This document shows positions 4,633 through 11,275 of a stretch of 40,528 nt of DNA, one piece after another (position 1 is the stretch's first letter; each line of letters starts with the position of its first letter). The stretch is from assembly GCA_949282745.1 (NCBI GenBank), contig CASDQM010000012.1, positions 1-40,528 of the forward strand, given 5' to 3'. A program made the translations under genes and the position numbers. A model generated the notes under the pieces. The model worked only from the letters and a program-made list of their open reading frames with translations. It was not told where the DNA came from and did no database searches. The DNA comes from an uncultured Sutterella sp. (lineage in GTDB: Bacteria; Pseudomonadota; Gammaproteobacteria; Burkholderiales; Burkholderiaceae_F).

Positions 4633-5685
4633 TCAGTCCTCGTCTTTCACCATCTTGCGGGCATCGTCGAGCAGCCGATCCGCAGCGATTCGAACGTCGA
4701 AAGCATTTCGGAATTCGTGGTCCTGCCTGATGCGGAATTTCTCGAATTCCCCCAGGGCATGTTCCTTCGCCTCTTGGGCCGAAACGCTGCCGGGACCTTG
4801 AAGAATGCCCATGTCGTTGAATACCAGGAAGCTGTCGAGTCGCTTCTCCCAGTCGTCCATGGTCATGGGAAGGCGCTTCTGGGCGCGGAGCTCGGCCATG
4901 TCGAGATACATGGAAACCAAGCGGTTGAGCGTGTCGATCTCTTCTTTGGAGAGATAGTTTTTCGCGATGAGAACATCGGTGCGGATGACCTTGCCGCCCG
5001 TCTTGACATTCTTCCAGGAGGTGAGGCCCATGTGCGGCTTTTCCGCATCCGCTCGGTCCCTGATGATCTCCGCTGCCGTGTGACGATGAACCGCGTAGTG
5101 AAGCTTGTTCTGGACGGTTGCGAAGAATCGGCGGGCAACGTCCGAATCAACGTCGTAGTCGGAAGCCGTTGCGAACAGGTCCGTCACCTTTTGGTAGGCC
5201 TGGCGCTCGCTTGCGCGAATCTCCCGAATTTCTTCAAGAAGTTGGTCGAAGTACGACTGATCGAATAGCTTGCCGTTCTTTAGACGTTCGGAGTCCAACA
5301 AGTAGCCCCTGATCACGAAGTCGCGAAGCACTCTCGTCGCCCACTGACGGAAAGCCGTGGCACGTTTGCTATTGACGCGGTAGCCGACGGCGATGATGGC
5401 GTCGAGGTTGTAGTGCTTAACCTTGCGGGTAACCGTACGGGAGCCTTCTTCGCGAACAACTAAGAAATCCTTAGTAGTTGCCTCTTCCATCAATTCTTCG
5501 TCATCGAAAATCTTCTTCAAGTGCTGAAGGACATTTTCAGGGGTGCAGTCAAACAGTTGAGCCATCAACTTCTGAGTAAGCCAGATAGTCTCATCCTCGA
5601 TACGAACTTCAATACCGTTGCCGCCATTCTCCTTAGTGAAGATGAGAAAGTCGGCCGTATGATTCCGGATGTTTGATTTATCCAT
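4633..5685 (-). CDS. rhuM: RhuM family protein
   Basis: This 350-residue protein matches the RhuM family (COG3943) over its whole length. The N-terminus (DFLIFTKENG and VRIEDETIWLTQKLMAQLF) has the winged-helix-like DNA-binding look of the family. The diagnostic block follows at about residues 105-145: the KHYNLDAIIAVGYRVNSKRA stretch and then FRQWATRVLRDFVIRGYLL. The C-terminal half is helical and ends at KDED. RhuM was first named in a Salmonella pathogenicity island, but family members are frequently carried inside type I restriction loci; their biochemical role is not established. The start is the ATG at 5685, which has AAGG a few bases upstream; the frame extends to a TTG at 5724 without support. 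The gene is intact although the neighbouring hsdR is ruined. A weak promoter (TTGCCA, 16 bp, AATAAT) lies about 40-70 bp upstream. Confidence 0.85.
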   Translation of the reverse strand: MDKSNIRNHTADFLIFTKENGGNGIEVRIEDETIWLTQKLMAQLFDCTPENVLQHLKKIFDDEELMEEATTKDFLVVREEGSRTVTRKVKHYNLDAIIAVGYRVNSKRATAFRQWATRVLRDFVIRGYLLDSERLKNGKLFDQSYFDQLLEEIREIRASERQAYQKVTDLFATASDYDVDSDVARRFFATVQNKLHYAVHRHTAAEIIRDRADAEKPHMGLTSWKNVKTGGKVIRTDVLIAKNYLSKEEIDTLNRLVSMYLDMAELRAQKRLPMTMDDWEKRLDSFLVFNDMGILQGPGSVSAQEAKEHALGEFEKFRIRQDHEFRNAFDVRIAADRLLDDARKMVKDED

Positions 5686-5890
5686 GGTTAACCTTAACTC
5701 ACAAAGAAAGAAGATACTAAACAATCGCGATTATTCAACACTCTTCGCTATTGGCAAACAACCCTCGACTAAAATTGAAGGCTTTGCAACTATTGCCGAG
5801 GCACGTCGCATTAGGCCTGTTTACAGCCGGCGCCTGAGTCCCCGGCTGGTAACCCAGACTCTGCAGATTCCGACCTGCGTTGAGATCGCT

Positions 5891-6160: not shown

Positions 6161-7543
6161 TTAGAGACAGTGCGCAGCGTAAAGCGGCACAAGAAGGCGC
6201 CTCCCGTCCCTGCGCATAGGGCCGGGATAAACAACGTATTCCGTCCCGATTTTCTCCCGGAACTTTTCCGCGAAGCGTTCGAGTGACAGCACACGAAAAC
6301 GTACGGACGACTTCACTTCGATCGGGCTCACTCGGGGCTTTCCTCCGGCATCCTTGAATGATCGAACGACTAGAAAATCGATTTCAAGACGTTCCTCACC
6401 CTCCTTCTTTCCACTCTGCGAATAGTAAAAAAGTCGATCCCCCTTTGCGACCAAGGTTTGCGCCACGACGTTTTCGACGAGCATCCCTTCGTTAAGCGAC
6501 AATTTTCCAAACAGCACGCCGCGATAGAGATCTTCCTTCGTTGCGTTCGAGGTGAGGAGACTCATCGTGGCGAGCAGTCCCGTGTCAGCCATATAGCACT
6601 TCAGCGCTGACGAATCTCGCGAGAGCGCCAAGCCCACTGAGGGGGCCGTCGAGGAAAAGCAGGGAATGCTGATTTGCGCATCCGCCAACCAGAAAAAGGC
6701 TTCTTCGTACGTTCTAGAACGAGCGGATTTGCCAAGCGACGCAAGCGTAAAACGCTTTTCATGTTTCGAGAGTTGTGCGGGGATCTCATCGAAAATGCTT
6801 CCCACTTTATCCTGGTAACCGTAGGCAAAGCGAGCAACGTCTTTCCTATAAAGATCAAGAATCCTTCTTTTTTCCTCATCGGCCTTTTCAAAGGAAGATG
6901 TCTGTGCATAAACGTCGACAACGCGCGGCATACCCCCGATAAGCATGTACTCGCGAAATAACCTTGATGCCTTCCTATGAAGTGCGTCGGGGACGGCATC
7001 CCCCCGCTCGAAAGCTTCACGGATAAGGTCGGAGAGCGAGTCATTGCCGGTCGCGACGAGAAACTCTTCAAAGTCGAGCGGGTTCAGACGAAAGGACTCT
7101 TCTTCCGACGGGATGACGATCTCCTGAACATTTTGTCGGATCGAGAGAAGTGACCCCGTTTCTATGTAGTCATATCGTCCGTCCGCGACCAGGTACTTGA
7201 TAAAACCGCGGGCGATCGGAAAAGTCTGAACCTCATCGAAAATGACCAGACTCTCGCGCGGGTAAAGCCTCACACCGTAGAAAGCGCTCAAATACTGGAA
7301 GAACTTGTCGATGTCCGTGCGCAAGTTCATGAAGATGTCAGCCACCTCCTGCGGAATTCGGGCAAAGTCTATGAGCAAGTACGAGCGATAATGACGCTTC
7401 CCGAACGCCTCCGCCAAGGTACTTTTTCCCACCCGGCGCGCACCCTCAATCAAAAGAGCCGTCGCTCCCCGACGGTTCTGCTTCCACTCAACTAGTCGGT
7501 CCATCGCTTTTCGATCGATCACAGCTTCAACCCCCTCATTCAC
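6161..7543 (-). CDS. AAA+ ATPase with C-terminal DUF4143
   Basis: This is a 460-residue member of the large ATPase family with an AAA_14 core and a DUF4143 C-terminal half. The Walker A motif is GARRVGKST at about residues 34-42 and Walker B is LVIFDEVQ at about 99-106. The C-terminal part carries the DUF4143 hallmarks, a LLATMSLL-like helix, NEGMLVENVVAQTLVAKGD, and a nuclease-like strand IDFLVVRSF followed by VSPIEVKSS. The family is common in gut bacteria and archaea; the role is not established, with DNA-binding or toxin-like functions proposed. I start at the GTG at 7543 because GGAAG sits 8 bases upstream; an ATG at 7504 is the alternative and would still keep Walker A. The repeat array and its short frame end 33 bp upstream in the same direction, which hints at joint expression. 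Confidence 0.85.
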   Translation of the reverse strand: MNEGVEAVIDRKAMDRLVEWKQNRRGATALLIEGARRVGKSTLAEAFGKRHYRSYLLIDFARIPQEVADIFMNLRTDIDKFFQYLSAFYGVRLYPRESLVIFDEVQTFPIARGFIKYLVADGRYDYIETGSLLSIRQNVQEIVIPSEEESFRLNPLDFEEFLVATGNDSLSDLIREAFERGDAVPDALHRKASRLFREYMLIGGMPRVVDVYAQTSSFEKADEEKRRILDLYRKDVARFAYGYQDKVGSIFDEIPAQLSKHEKRFTLASLGKSARSRTYEEAFFWLADAQISIPCFSSTAPSVGLALSRDSSALKCYMADTGLLATMSLLTSNATKEDLYRGVLFGKLSLNEGMLVENVVAQTLVAKGDRLFYYSQSGKKEGEERLEIDFLVVRSFKDAGGKPRVSPIEVKSSVRFRVLSLERFAEKFREKIGTEYVVYPGPMRRDGRRLLVPLYAAHCL

Positions 7544-7576
7544 AGTTTTTACTTCCAACGCAATATAAAATCGTCA

Positions 7577-7705
7577 TCACAACCTACAGCGTCGCACGAT
7601 ATCCATGTATGTCAACACCATTTTTAGCACGATATCCAAGTATAAAACAAGCTGTTTAAGCACGGTATCCATGTAAGAAACCACCGTTTTCAGCACGATA
7701 TCCAT
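7577..7705 (-). CDS. short frame encoding an 11-residue-repeat peptide (YMDIVLK type)
   Basis: Read on the minus strand, the 33-bp repeats form one open frame of 42 residues. The unit is YMDIVLKTVVS, repeated with changes as YMDTVLKQLVL and YLDIVLKMVLT and ending in YMDIVRRCRL and a stop. Between copies the leucine codon changes CTG/CTT/CTA while the protein is kept, which favours coding, though four copies are too few to prove it. A GGGGA element 8 bases before the ATG could serve as a ribosome site. The stop lies 33 bp before the ATPase start. The frame has no stop to the left of the ATG until a TAA 27 bases upstream. I do not know an established function; the array may instead be a protein-binding DNA repeat that happens to be open. 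Confidence 0.4.
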   Translation of the reverse strand: MDIVLKTVVSYMDTVLKQLVLYLDIVLKMVLTYMDIVRRCRL

Positions 7706-7708
7706 GTA
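7594..7708. repeat. four-copy direct repeat, exact 33-bp period
   Basis: The 16-bp core GCACGATATCCATGTA occurs at 7594, 7627 (one mismatch, CAAGTA), 7660 (one mismatch, GGTATCC) and 7693. The spacing is exactly 33 bp each time. The 17-bp segments between cores are less conserved but share A/T-rich ends. The array lies directly upstream of the minus-strand AAA+/DUF4143 ATPase gene. Interpretations are an iteron-like binding array for a regulator or the ATPase itself, or the coding repeat described for 7577-7705. Confidence 0.9.
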
Positions 7709-7731: not shown

Positions 7732-8291
7732 CATTCGCGTTACAGCACTCTGACAAAGGGCGTTCTCGCACGGCCCGTCCGAATGCGCTAGAAGCGCCCC
7801 TTCCTTGCACGGCGACCCGTTCTGCACGCCGTCTTTCCTCCGGAACGAACGCCACACCTCCCCGCAACTCCTCCTCCCCTCACCAAACGTCCTAGGCAAT
7901 CGAACCTATTGCGAGTCCTTAGCTTTTGCAATAAAGTCTTTTCTACGCACTCACAAAGAGGCGCTCGGACCGGATCCCATTCCGGATTTCTTCCCCACCA
8001 CGGAGTTCCCCATGACCGCACGATTCACCATACGCCGCACGATCCGCAAGGATCCCGCGCGCTTCGTGCCCGCCTCGGAATTCCGACTTACGAGCCTTCT
8101 CCGCCTTAGGACGGGGGACGGCCGCTGATTATTTTCTTCACTCACCGCCGTTCTCCCGCCAAGAATCGCGAGCAGGACGGCGTACGGGGATCTTCCCCAT
8201 TCAGCCCGCACGAGCGCAAAACCGCCACGACGGCCCTTCGTTCGAACCTCTCGCGACGACGTGAGACCCAAACGAACCAAGGATGACCGTC
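7732..8291. other. intergenic region without a convincing gene
   Basis: Open frames here (for example 7805-8128 plus) have no ribosome site, no family features and atypical composition, so I leave them out. The region must hold the promoter of the ABC importer operon. The best candidate is TTGCGA near 7910 with ATAAAG 16 bases downstream near 7932, well upstream of the first gene. Confidence 0.3.
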
Positions 8292-9347
8292 ATGACGAAC
8301 CAAACGCCTCAAATCTTCAACGCTCCCTTCTCCCGCCGCACGTTCTGCCGCGGCGCCGCCCTCTTTGCCGCGGGTCTTGCGACGCCCCCGATTTTCGCGG
8401 CCGAGCCCGAAAAGACCGAAGTCACGATCGCCGTGGGCGGAAAGAACCTCTACTACTACCTTCCCGCCGCCATCGCCGAATGGAAGGGCTTTTACAAGGA
8501 AGAAGGCTTGGACGTCAAGGTCGTCGACTTCCAGGGCGGATCGAAATCTCTGCAGGCCGTCGTGGGCGGCTCCGCCGACGTGGTTTCGGGCGCTTTCGAG
8601 CACACGCTCTCGATGCAGGCGAAGCGCCAGGCGATGCGCGCCTTCGTGCTCCAGGGCCGCGCCCCGCAGTGCGTCTTTGCGGTGAACCGCAAGACGATGC
8701 CGAACTTTCAGGACGTGAAGGAACTCAAGGGCCGCCGCATCGGCGTCACGGCGCCGGGGTCGTCTTCGCACGTGATCGCGAACTACGTCCTGAAGCGCGC
8801 GGGCATCGCCTCGAACGAAGTGGCCGTAATCGGGATCGGCTCGGGCGCGGGCGCGATCGCAGCCGTGCGCGCGGGCCAGGTCGACGCCTTCGTGGGGCTC
8901 GACCCCGTGATCACGCAGTTGATGCAGGACGACGCGATTCAAATCGTCACCGACACGCGAAACGTCGCGGAATCGGACGCCCTTTTCGGCGGGCCCATGG
9001 TGGCGGGCTGCCTCTATGCCCCGACGAGCTTCGTCGAGAAGAACCCCGAAACCGTGCAGCGCTTGACGAACGCGATCGTGCGCGCCGACAAGTGGCTCGC
9101 AACCGTCACCCCCGACGAACTCGTGAAGGTGGTGCCTCGCGCGGCCTTCCTCGGGAACCCCAAGGTCTACGTCGAAGGTTTCCTCAAGAACCGTCCGGCG
9201 CTCTCCACCGACGGGCGCTTTCCCGAAGGCTGCGCCCAGATTTCCGCGGCGGCCCTCGCGACGGTCGACGCGAAGTTGAAGGACTTCCCCTTTGACTTCG
9301 GGACGGTCTTTACGAACGAATTCGTCGACAAGGCGACGGCAAAGTGA
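8292..9347 (+). CDS. ABC importer substrate-binding protein, SsuA/TauA/NMT1-like, Tat-exported
   Basis: This is the periplasmic binding protein of an importer for a small organic anion or vitamin precursor. It has 351 residues. The N-terminus has a twin-arginine motif (SRRTFCRG at residues 14-21), a hydrophobic stretch and a cleavage-like IFAA site near residue 37. The mature part shows the NMT1/SsuA pattern: YYYLPAAIAEWKGFYKEEGL, then VDFQGGSKSLQAVVGGSADV, then GRRIGVTAPGSSSHV. I prefer the ATG at 8292, because AAGGA lies 8 bases upstream; the in-frame ATG at 8283 overlaps that site. The ATPase and permease follow without a gap. Sulfonates, taurine, nitrate-like anions and pyrimidine precursors are all transported by this family; the sequence does not choose. 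Confidence 0.88.
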   Translation: MTNQTPQIFNAPFSRRTFCRGAALFAAGLATPPIFAAEPEKTEVTIAVGGKNLYYYLPAAIAEWKGFYKEEGLDVKVVDFQGGSKSLQAVVGGSADVVSGAFEHTLSMQAKRQAMRAFVLQGRAPQCVFAVNRKTMPNFQDVKELKGRRIGVTAPGSSSHVIANYVLKRAGIASNEVAVIGIGSGAGAIAAVRAGQVDAFVGLDPVITQLMQDDAIQIVTDTRNVAESDALFGGPMVAGCLYAPTSFVEKNPETVQRLTNAIVRADKWLATVTPDELVKVVPRAAFLGNPKVYVEGFLKNRPALSTDGRFPEGCAQISAAALATVDAKLKDFPFDFGTVFTNEFVDKATAK

Positions 9348-9361
9348 CGGGGAGCGAGAGG

Positions 9362-10195
9362 ATGCAAAAAGCTTTCACATCGGCGAATCCCGCCCCCGCG
9401 CTCGACTTTCGGGGCGTCACCTGCCGCTTTGCCGGCAAACCTGGGCAACCCGACTACACGGCGACCGAGAACGTGTCGTTCACGGTCGAAGCGGGCGAAT
9501 TCGTGAGCGTCGTGGGCCCCACGGGCTGCGGCAAGTCCACGATCCTCAACGCCGCGGCGGGGCTTTTGAAGCCGACCGAGGGCGAAGTGCGGGTCTTCGG
9601 CGAAACGCTCACGGGGATCAACCGCCGCGCCGGATACATGTTCCAGGCGGAAAGCCTCATGCCCTGGGCCACGGCCTATGAAAACGTCGTGATGGGCCTT
9701 CGCTATCGGGGCGTTCCCGAGACTGAGCGGCGCGAAGCGGGCATGTCGTGGCTTGCGCGCGTCGGGCTCGAGCGCTTCGCGGACCGTTATCCCCACGAAC
9801 TCTCGGGCGGGATGCGAAAGCGCGTGGCGCTTGCGCAGACGCTCGTCACCGACCCCGACATTCTCCTCATGGACGAATCCTTTTCCGCGCTCGACATCCA
9901 GACGCGGCAGCTGATGGAAAACGAATTGCTCGACATCTGGCAGAGCGCGAAGAAAGCGGTCCTCTTCATCACGCACGACTTGGACGAAGCCGTTTCGATG
10001 TCGGACCGCGTCGTGGTGCTCTCGGCCGGACCGGCTTCGCACCCGATCGGAAACTTCCCGACCGAACTGCCGCGTCCGCGAAACGTCGTCGAAATCCGCA
10101 CGACGCCCGACTTCCTCGCCTGCCACGAAGCGATCTGGAACGTGCTGCGAGACGAAGTCCTGAAGAGTTATCACCAACACCGCGAGTCGATTTAA
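9362..10195 (+). CDS. ABC importer ATP-binding subunit, SsuB/TauB-like
   Basis: This 277-residue nucleotide-binding protein energises the importer. Walker A is GPTGCGKST (about residues 52-60), the signature motif is LSGGMRKR (about 145-152), and Walker B is ILLMDESFSALD (about 167-178) followed by the switch histidine in FITHDLDEA. These are typical of the nitrate/sulfonate/taurine ATPase group. The start is the ATG at 9362 with GGAG 7 bases upstream; a GTG at 9344 overlaps the previous stop codon and would add six residues. The permease gene begins 13 bp after the stop with its own GGGGGAG site, so the three genes form one operon. Confidence 0.92.
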   Translation: MQKAFTSANPAPALDFRGVTCRFAGKPGQPDYTATENVSFTVEAGEFVSVVGPTGCGKSTILNAAAGLLKPTEGEVRVFGETLTGINRRAGYMFQAESLMPWATAYENVVMGLRYRGVPETERREAGMSWLARVGLERFADRYPHELSGGMRKRVALAQTLVTDPDILLMDESFSALDIQTRQLMENELLDIWQSAKKAVLFITHDLDEAVSMSDRVVVLSAGPASHPIGNFPTELPRPRNVVEIRTTPDFLACHEAIWNVLRDEVLKSYHQHRESI

Positions 10196-10208
10196 GGGGG
10201 AGACAATC

Positions 10209-11075
10209 ATGACGCAAACGCATGCCGCGGCCGTTCGGGCCGTTCAAAATCCCAAGGCGAGAACCGAGGAGCGGGAACGCCACAACGCCCGTTGGCGCGT
10301 GCGCGCGGGCCAGTGGGGCCTGCTCGTTGCGGTCTTCGTCTTCTGGTGGCTCATGACAAAGCCCGGACTCGTGCCGCCCTTCTTCTTCGAAAACGACAGT
10401 CAGGCGGCCTTCTTTTTCGGCGAGCCCGATCAGATTTTCTTGCGCATCTGGGAGTGGTTTGCGGGCGGAGAAATCTACCGGCACCTCTTCGTGACGCTCT
10501 ACGAAACCCTGATGGCCTTCGTAATCGGGACGGTTTCGGGGCTCTTCGTCGGGCTCTGGCTTGCCCGCGCCCCCACGGCCGCGGCCGTGCTCGATCCCTT
10601 CATCAAGGGGCTGAACTCCATGCCCCGCGTGATTTTGGCGCCGATCTTCGCCGTCTGGTTCGGGCTCGGGCCGGCGTCGAAGATTGCGCTCGGCGTCACG
10701 CTCGTCTTCTTCATCGTTTTCTTCAACGTCTATCAGGGCGTGCGGGAAGTCAATCCCACGGTCTTGGCGAGCGCGCGCATGCTGGGCGCGACGAACCGGC
10801 AGCTCATGCGCACCGTCTACATTCCGTCGGCGATGAGCTGGGTCTTTTCGAGCCTTCACACCTCGGTCGGGATGGCTTTCGTCGCGGCCGTGATCGGCGA
10901 ATACCTCGGAAGCGCCGAGGGTGTGGGCTACCTGATTCTCCAGGCCGAAACGACCTTCGACATGAACACCGTGATGGCGGGGATTCTCGTTCTGACGGCC
11001 TTCGCGCTCGTCATCGACCGGGCTGTCACCGAACTTGAGCGCCGCTTCATGCGCTGGCAGCCGGCCGTGAAGTAA
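10209..11075 (+). CDS. ABC importer permease, SsuC/TauC-like
   Basis: This inner-membrane permease has 288 residues and about six or seven hydrophobic segments. The cytoplasmic coupling loop with the EAA-type motif is visible (LASARMLGATNRQLMR followed by VYIPSA). The first segment is preceded by a charged cytoplasmic N-terminus of about 35 residues. The family is the BPD_transp_1 type permease of nitrate/sulfonate/taurine importers. It is the last gene of the operon and is followed by a strong hairpin. Confidence 0.9.
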   Translation: MTQTHAAAVRAVQNPKARTEERERHNARWRVRAGQWGLLVAVFVFWWLMTKPGLVPPFFFENDSQAAFFFGEPDQIFLRIWEWFAGGEIYRHLFVTLYETLMAFVIGTVSGLFVGLWLARAPTAAAVLDPFIKGLNSMPRVILAPIFAVWFGLGPASKIALGVTLVFFIVFFNVYQGVREVNPTVLASARMLGATNRQLMRTVYIPSAMSWVFSSLHTSVGMAFVAAVIGEYLGSAEGVGYLILQAETTFDMNTVMAGILVLTAFALVIDRAVTELERRFMRWQPAVK

Positions 11076-11127: not shown

Positions 11128-11196
11128 GGTTCGGATTGAGCTCTAAGGAAAACGAAGGGAAAGGCCCGAAGAAAGGGGCCGCCTCACGCGCCTCGC

Positions 11197-11275
11197 GGAT
11201 ACGACCGCATAAGACCGGATAACACCGCATACGACTGCATAAGTCTGCATAGGAGCGCATAACTTCGCATACGCG
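11197..11275. repeat. tandem repeat with 10-bp period, about eight copies
   Basis: The unit is about A(A/C)GACCGCAT; each copy ends in GCAT or GGAT, and the GCATA/GGATA steps recur exactly every 10 bases from about 11197 to 11274. It lies between the convergent ABC permease and LeuE-like genes. The period is not a multiple of three, so it is not coding, and it matches roughly one DNA helical turn, so any bound protein would meet all copies on the same face. Confidence 0.85.

Follow-up and report, generated by a model that had tools for sequence, protein, structure and literature searches.

PDC-S01, an ATPase combined with a PD-(D/E)XK domain, is a PADLOC phage-defence candidate whose validation is pending, and the available parts of its description place it fourth in frequency among the defences of prokaryotes and count 29,494 systems in bacteria and 9,986 in archaea (PMC12988326). 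It is also the most frequent individual locus in rumen genomes, as far as the accessible text of a second study goes (PMC13356809). Two described regulators offer further points of comparison, here taken from the consulted portions of the respective papers: RptR, the repressor of a restriction-modification defence island, acts at promoter direct repeats, two of which overlap the -10 box (PMC12255303), and in IniR an SSO1545-like AAA ATPase is linked to DNA binding and to multimerisation (PMC5760070). We analysed a window of 40,528 nucleotides from an uncultured Sutterella sp. (contig CASDQM010000012.1; the window is this whole stretch), in which a row of short direct repeats stands in front of a gene for an ATPase of the PDC-S01 type. 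From sequence comparisons we consider it probable that this array is a phased operator through which the PDC-S01 ATPase-nuclease would regulate its own gene, and that it would be read by the protein's own winged helix.

A 33-bp array in front of the ATPase gene

The array comprises four copies of a 16-bp core, GCACGRTATCCAWGTA, at 33-bp steps between 7594 and 7708, directly upstream of the minus-strand ATPase gene. The exact 33-bp spacing noticed in a first, sequence-only reading of this DNA was confirmed, with cores at 7594, 7627, 7660 and 7693. On the gene strand the cores read TACATGGATATCGTGC with at most one change each, and the bases between them are less similar. With a Tandem Repeats Finder (TRF) score of 131, the array ranks first among the 20 TRF rows of the window. 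Five matches to the core with up to three mismatches were found in the window, the fifth at 4907 with three mismatches, against a mean of 0.26 (maximum 2) in 100 shuffles. The assembly of the same genome (2.5 Mb, 92.5% complete) contains two further matches, each single and with two mismatches (reversed control, 0), and at no other place in it is the core multiplied.

The minus strand across the array is open from 7705 down to a stop at 7577 and reads MDIVLKTVVS / YMDTVLKQLVL / YLDIVLKMVLT / YMDIVRRCRL-stop. This 42-residue frame ends 33 bp from the ATPase start, as the sequence-only reading had it, when the GTG at 7543 is taken as the start (18 bp from the TTG at 7558). That reading had proposed a YMDIVLK repeat microprotein partnering the ATPase, for which the open codons, the nearby stop and some silent leucine changes between copies speak; an open sense frame is in phase in 13 of the 49 arrays that have at least three sites. 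The silent changes (CTG/CTT/CTA) do exist, but only 3 of 17 codon differences are silent. The comparison of synonymous and nonsynonymous change that had been suggested as a check gave 14 nonsynonymous against 3 synonymous differences among the three full copies, spread as 10, 7 and 9 over codon positions 1, 2 and 3. Repeats out of frame at homologous loci had been named as an outcome that would tell against coding, and they were found: among 61 homologous arrays, with step counts of 33 (71), 32 (49), 34 (5) and 31 (4), all spacings are divisible by three in 28 and at least one breaks the frame in 33. Moreover, the cores of relatives are wholly different in sequence, and a 33-bp unit that lacks a stop in one frame stays open at no cost. 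The codon-level constraint and frame conservation expected of a repeat microprotein gene are absent, and we regard such a gene as very improbable.

Equally improbable is that the array works as RNA within the 5' leader. Its last sites would lie inside the leader if transcription began at the tentative -10 element listed in Table 1. On the transcript strand, however, folding of the window array does not exceed that of shuffled sequences (z +1.13), of which 176 of 200 were equally or more stable; no Rfam family is matched at gathering score in the window, and in several other loci the best promoter is found downstream of the array. Since the frame is often not kept and in the window neither a folding nor an Rfam signal is seen, the array most likely works, if at all, as DNA.

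Arrays mark one clade of ATPases

Homologous loci were collected from several sources. When the protein was searched against 67 genomes of the family with a cut-off of E 1e-20, 33 matches turned up in 19 of them, and 30 were taken as loci; 19 loci came from viral contigs, nine from named plasmids, and 80 from named genome records, these being the best 80 of at least 584 and belonging to one subfamily. The sample is bacterial, without archaeal members. Regions were scored by chains of repeated 12-mers at 31-34 bp, with a threshold of 12; L028 and L066, whose upstreams are too short, are unscored, as is L112 (41 bp), and the control regions of L145 and L146 are misplaced. The threshold was reached by 63 of 143 upstream regions (two of them, L080 and L088, from outside the family, viral-contig and genome-record sets). 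Downstream regions reached it in 1 of 141 cases, in-gene regions in 0 of 145, and the upstreams of neighbouring open reading frames in 5 of 250. Control steps of 20-23, 24-27, 28-31, 35-38, 40-43 and 46-49 bp passed in 10, 0, 2, 0, 3 and 2 of the 143 upstreams, respectively, the 20-23-bp steps standing above all other control windows.

In a simpler lag test, 34 of 67 upstreams showed lag 33 and 13 showed lag 32; neither lag was seen in 65 downstreams, and of 67 in-gene stretches one had lag 32 and none lag 33. Among the named genome records (again the best 80 of at least 584), lag 33 appeared in 21 and lag 32 in 33 of 79 upstreams; the controls here showed lag 32 downstream in 4 of 80 cases and lag 33 within the gene in 7 of 80.

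Among loci with enough upstream sequence, the array threshold was passed by 22 of 29 from the family, 12 of 18 from viral contigs and 27 of 79 from the named genome records, and it was passed by five of the nine plasmid loci (L175, L176, L177, L178 and L183, not L179-L182). The family cores differ, for example CGTAAAACGTG, CGCAAACGTGAAA, GCAATTGTGGAAA, AAAACGTTACA, GGAAAATGTAA and ACGCATCATATC. Judged by their titles, the named genome records include Bacillota, Bacteroidota, Fusobacteriota, Actinomycetota (Collinsella) and Fibrobacter, and the passing plasmid loci include Segatella copri, Agathobacter rectalis and the chlamydial Criblamydia sequanensis.

The arrays mark one clade of ATPase proteins. 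The count of 143 holds near duplicates (L051/L052, L054-L057), which the clade comparison removes at 75% identity. With proteins more than 75% identical taken out, arrays were present in 45 of 77 members of the clade and in 1 of 22 from sister DUF4143 clades (Fisher p 4e-6, shared ancestry ignored). Starts in this 22-row sister group are first ATGs, which makes its upstream regions less exact; its sole scoring row, L080, is included in the helix/core table and left outside the core-correlation, frame and promoter-position counts. In the window's own subclade, 17 of 18 listed loci pass. The best PADLOC matches of the array clade by E-value are PDLC04786, 04792 and 04788. Ten other DUF4143 proteins were scanned, of which nine best match PDLC04787, 04790 or 04791 and carry no array; the tenth, L079 (nearest PDLC04788), was below threshold. 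The other DUF4143 proteins of the window's genome show no array at L007, L008, L011 and L012, and a single pair at 33 bp at L010. The other proposal of the sequence-only reading was an iteron-like array that controls the ATPase; its first half is supported, as the association with this clade of ATPases recurs in many bacteria.

This association does not extend to the core sequence itself, a search for which upstream of such ATPases in related genomes had been suggested as a check. Searched as a 33-bp pair in the 67 family genomes, the window's core forms an array in its own genome only, while homologues carry arrays of other cores. Elsewhere among these genomes it occurs in two, at one place each, with 1 and 2 mismatches. 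The closest homologue there (63% identity) has steps of 33, 32 and 32 and a different core.

No conserved partner gene was found in the flanks examined, the largest cluster covering 4 of 75 loci. One downstream-flank open reading frame has homologues in 3 of 75 loci and reads at L162 as a second ATPase of the same type. At another locus (L044, G014:C59), a core pair at 33 bp survives beside an ATPase copy that is interrupted by six in-frame stops. The Segatella copri plasmid NZ_CP085933.1 has four places similar to the ATPase, among them L175. A Thermus ATP-binding protein on pTT27 (L184) was tried as a member of the array clade and rejected, its match to A1 being weak (best 51 bits) and its upstream without an array (best pair 8/12). 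It may be the DUF4143 gene that, according to the available part of the report, rises 6.6-fold with plasmid DNA when Argonaute is present (PMC4406477), and it is a candidate for TT_P0211.

The probable reader and the promoter context

In Pfam the window ATPase matches AAA_14 and DUF4143, both above cut-off, and nothing else, with neither a replication-initiator family nor a repeat domain. PADLOC PDC-S01 profiles match it at 3.1e-100 and 3.3e-96, the former being PDLC04786 over residues 14-465, and each of the 58 proteins in alignment A3 likewise has a match among these models. The nucleotide-binding, helical and winged-helix domains follow one another in the order of STAND and Orc-like proteins, and SSO1545 (2fna) is among the best fold matches; the winged helix searched alone gave no strong fold match. 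Classical STAND proteins end in C-terminal sensor repeats; the C-terminus here is modelled as a nuclease-type alpha/beta domain. In A3, E387 and D389 are conserved in at least 90% of members and E409 and K411 are invariant, and we take these four to be the PD-(D/E)XK residues.

The core tracks the type of ATPase more than the host, with exceptions, in what is a correlation within one protein family and no proof of contact. Mean core similarity was 0.51 for ATPases less than 30% identical and 0.51-0.53 up to 50%, rising to 0.71 at 50-60% and 0.79 at 60-75% identity (Spearman 0.35; 0/300 permutations; 1771 pairs from 61 loci). Seven pairs of ATPases from the same genome had core similarities of 0.42-0.62, which shows that cores do not become similar by residing in one host. 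With the rest of the protein accounted for, a partial signal was carried by the AAA part (0.22; 0/300), the helical part (0.11; 2/300), the winged helix (0.13; 8/300) and its recognition helix (0.17; 2/300), and none by the nuclease part (0.02; 93/300). Recognition helices of the form GARAREYExAL are mostly paired with the core AAAATGTGAT, ARxRxYxGPxRWL helices with CGCAAACGTGAAA or GCAATTGTGG, the helix NARKYGDALQWL with GCATCATWTYC, and RADD-type helices with TGCGATTTT. Both within the window's family (L029, L045) and in records from Bacillota, Bacteroidota and Fusobacteriota, the AAAATGTGAT core is found together with its ATPase type.

Within the AAAATGTGAT group, 62 of 85 upstreams and none of 86 downstreams hold pairs of [TC]GTGA at 31-34 bp, and in 27 of the 85 a TCACA follows TGTGA by 11 bp. 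The combination resembles the CRP consensus, and in this largest group it speaks for a host regulator unrelated to the ATPase, for instance of the CRP/FNR type, that would bind the array and control the gene. Such a regulator is nonetheless unlikely. ATPases of one genome have unlike cores, and the AAAATGTGAT core follows its ATPase type across the phyla and the family named above; a single factor predicts the opposite pattern and fits badly with a core that tracks the ATPase, although several factors would be compatible with it.

The scan for consensus promoters found none at the window array. Offsets of the core to TATAAT in the AAAATGTGAT group peak at +11 (26), +8 (17) and -34 (10), of which the first two place the core over the start-site region and the third just upstream of the -35 region. 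A perfect TTGACA-17-TATAAT is present in two of the window's relatives, L049 and L050, its -10 falling within the array. The preferred offsets in the AAAATGTGAT group argue against the array being an iteron-like origin, a partition site or a selfish-element target of the ATPase-nuclease, as does the lack of a replication-initiator family in the protein by Pfam. Direct repeats next to a gene for an Orc-like ATPase, a solitary gene with no conserved partner in the flanks examined, and the occurrence on plasmids and viral contigs would all suit such a role, which we rate as improbable, though a shade less so than the host regulator. A uniform roadblock model was tried and was not upheld by the promoter positions. 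The sign of regulation may differ between clades.

Any competing explanation has to account for a fixed step of about three turns, concentration in one clade, tracking of core and ATPase, and examined flanks in which no neighbour is conserved; RNA or peptide fits badly given the frame and folding results. Autoregulation through a phased operator, the reading that we favour, would meet these points as follows. The array would be a cis-acting row of protein-binding sites, about three DNA turns apart, in the promoter region of the PDC-S01 gene. Its reader would most likely be the ATPase itself, with the winged helix recognising the core, and the STAND/Orc-like ATPase part would let neighbours 32-33 bp apart, on roughly one face of the DNA, bind cooperatively. 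Expression would then stay low until the ATPase switches state or is drawn off by titration; at loci whose sites cover the start, repression is the more likely sign. Binding by the ATPase, its cooperativity and the direction of regulation are what we infer here. Several observations temper this reading. The correlation of core and protein rests largely on pairs above 50% identity, mainly from the AAAATGTGAT group, and has exceptions; L065 and L148 break the pairing of GARAREYExAL with AAAATGTGAT; L170 and L174 have the same helix and a core only partly in common; and among all arrays with a promoter of at least 9/12 the -10 lies within the array span in 16 of 29, little above the 44% expected from the span.

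A bolder version, which we hold to be rather doubtful, takes the promoter as a platform for both storage and sensing. STAND-like ATPase-nucleases parked on the phased 33-bp sites, one to every three turns, would keep expression down and their nuclease inactive; promoter and effector would both be set free by invading DNA or by loss of the ATP state, and each clade would have a private recognition code. If so, the arrays would be a natural catalogue of winged-helix specificities. A mechanism of PDC-S01 sensing was not found in the literature searched, and an array that diversifies with its protein makes the mechanism testable, in the DNA that is read, the geometry and the control of the protein's own synthesis. 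The 61 array-bearing proteins are candidate helix-site pairs for decoding this winged helix.

Table 1. Features of the window around the array and the ATPase gene.
Feature	Position	Strand	Remarks
ATPase gene	6161..7543	-	GTG start (TTG at 7558 as longer alternative); AAA_14, winged helix and DUF4143; PADLOC PDC-S01
C-terminal PD-(D/E)XK-type nuclease domain, residues ~350-460	6164..6496	-	From alignment A3 and the available part of the PMC12988326 description
Predicted winged helix-turn-helix, residues 244-318	6590..6814	-	Helix 274-288 taken as recognition helix
AAA ATPase domain, residues ~20-160	7064..7486	-	G39, K40, D103 and E104 invariant in alignment A3
GGAAG, candidate ribosome-binding site for GTG at 7543	7552..7556	-	Read from sequence
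42-codon open frame across array	7577..7705	-	Judged non-genic
Core site 4 (gene-proximal)	7594..7609	-	TACATGGATATCGTGC
Core site 3	7627..7642	-	TACTTGGATATCGTGC
Candidate -10 element TATACT between sites 2 and 3	7639..7644	-	Tentative; poor -35 partner, 7/12 in all
Core site 2	7660..7675	-	TACATGGATACCGTGC
Core site 1 (most distal to gene)	7693..7708	-	TACATGGATATCGTGC on gene strand

Among the neighbours, a RhuM-family protein (PF13310, E 8e-111) is encoded 3' of the ATPase gene at 4633-5724 on the minus strand; RhuM proteins are often found near mobile or defence genes. Across the array from the ATPase gene, an ABC transporter set of an NMT1-type substrate-binding protein, an ABC ATPase and a permease occupies 8283-11075 on the plus strand. 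A tandem array of 10/20/30-bp units (CGCATAAGAC type) at 11195-11271 is unrelated in sequence to the 33-bp array.

Comparison with known systems

The window ATPase and every member of A3 belong with PDC-S01 by their profile matches; the published descriptions, in their available portions, mention no promoter array (PMC12988326, PMC13356809). The sequence-only reading had offered no established description of such a pair of repeat and ATPase. None was found in the literature searched either, a search outside which the founding PDC preprint (doi 10.1101/2024.01.29.577857) lies.

Of the STAND-type regulators MalT and IniR, IniR shares with the window ATPase the likeness to SSO1545. Here, however, no ligand-binding domain was found, the C-terminus is nuclease-type rather than a LuxR-type DNA-binding domain, and the DNA-binding part would be the internal winged helix. 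The archaeal ATPases PABY2304 (2qen) and SSO1545 differ in that the alignment with them stops before the nuclease domain. Iterons on plasmids resemble the array in being phased direct repeats that precede the gene of their probable binding protein, there an autoregulated Rep, but the ATPase contains no Rep family in Pfam and does not qualify as a replication initiator, and iterons are spaced by about two turns, as against about three here.

RptR is the likeness at the level of the promoter, with regulator-bound direct repeats at a defence locus. At both loci the repeats stand in the promoter region of the gene that they control or would control, the promoter of the window being only tentative. 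According to the consulted part of its description, RptR is a separate small protein and its three 9-bp repeats lie 58 to 31 bp before the start codon (PMC12255303), whereas the step here is 32-33 bp, no separate conserved regulator is present in the flanks examined, and the effector itself is the likely binder. Direct-repeat operators at defence promoters are already known from RptR, to the extent of that text (PMC12255303); the array in this branch of the very common PDC-S01 family would be a phased operator that is joined to the effector and probably has the effector as its reader.
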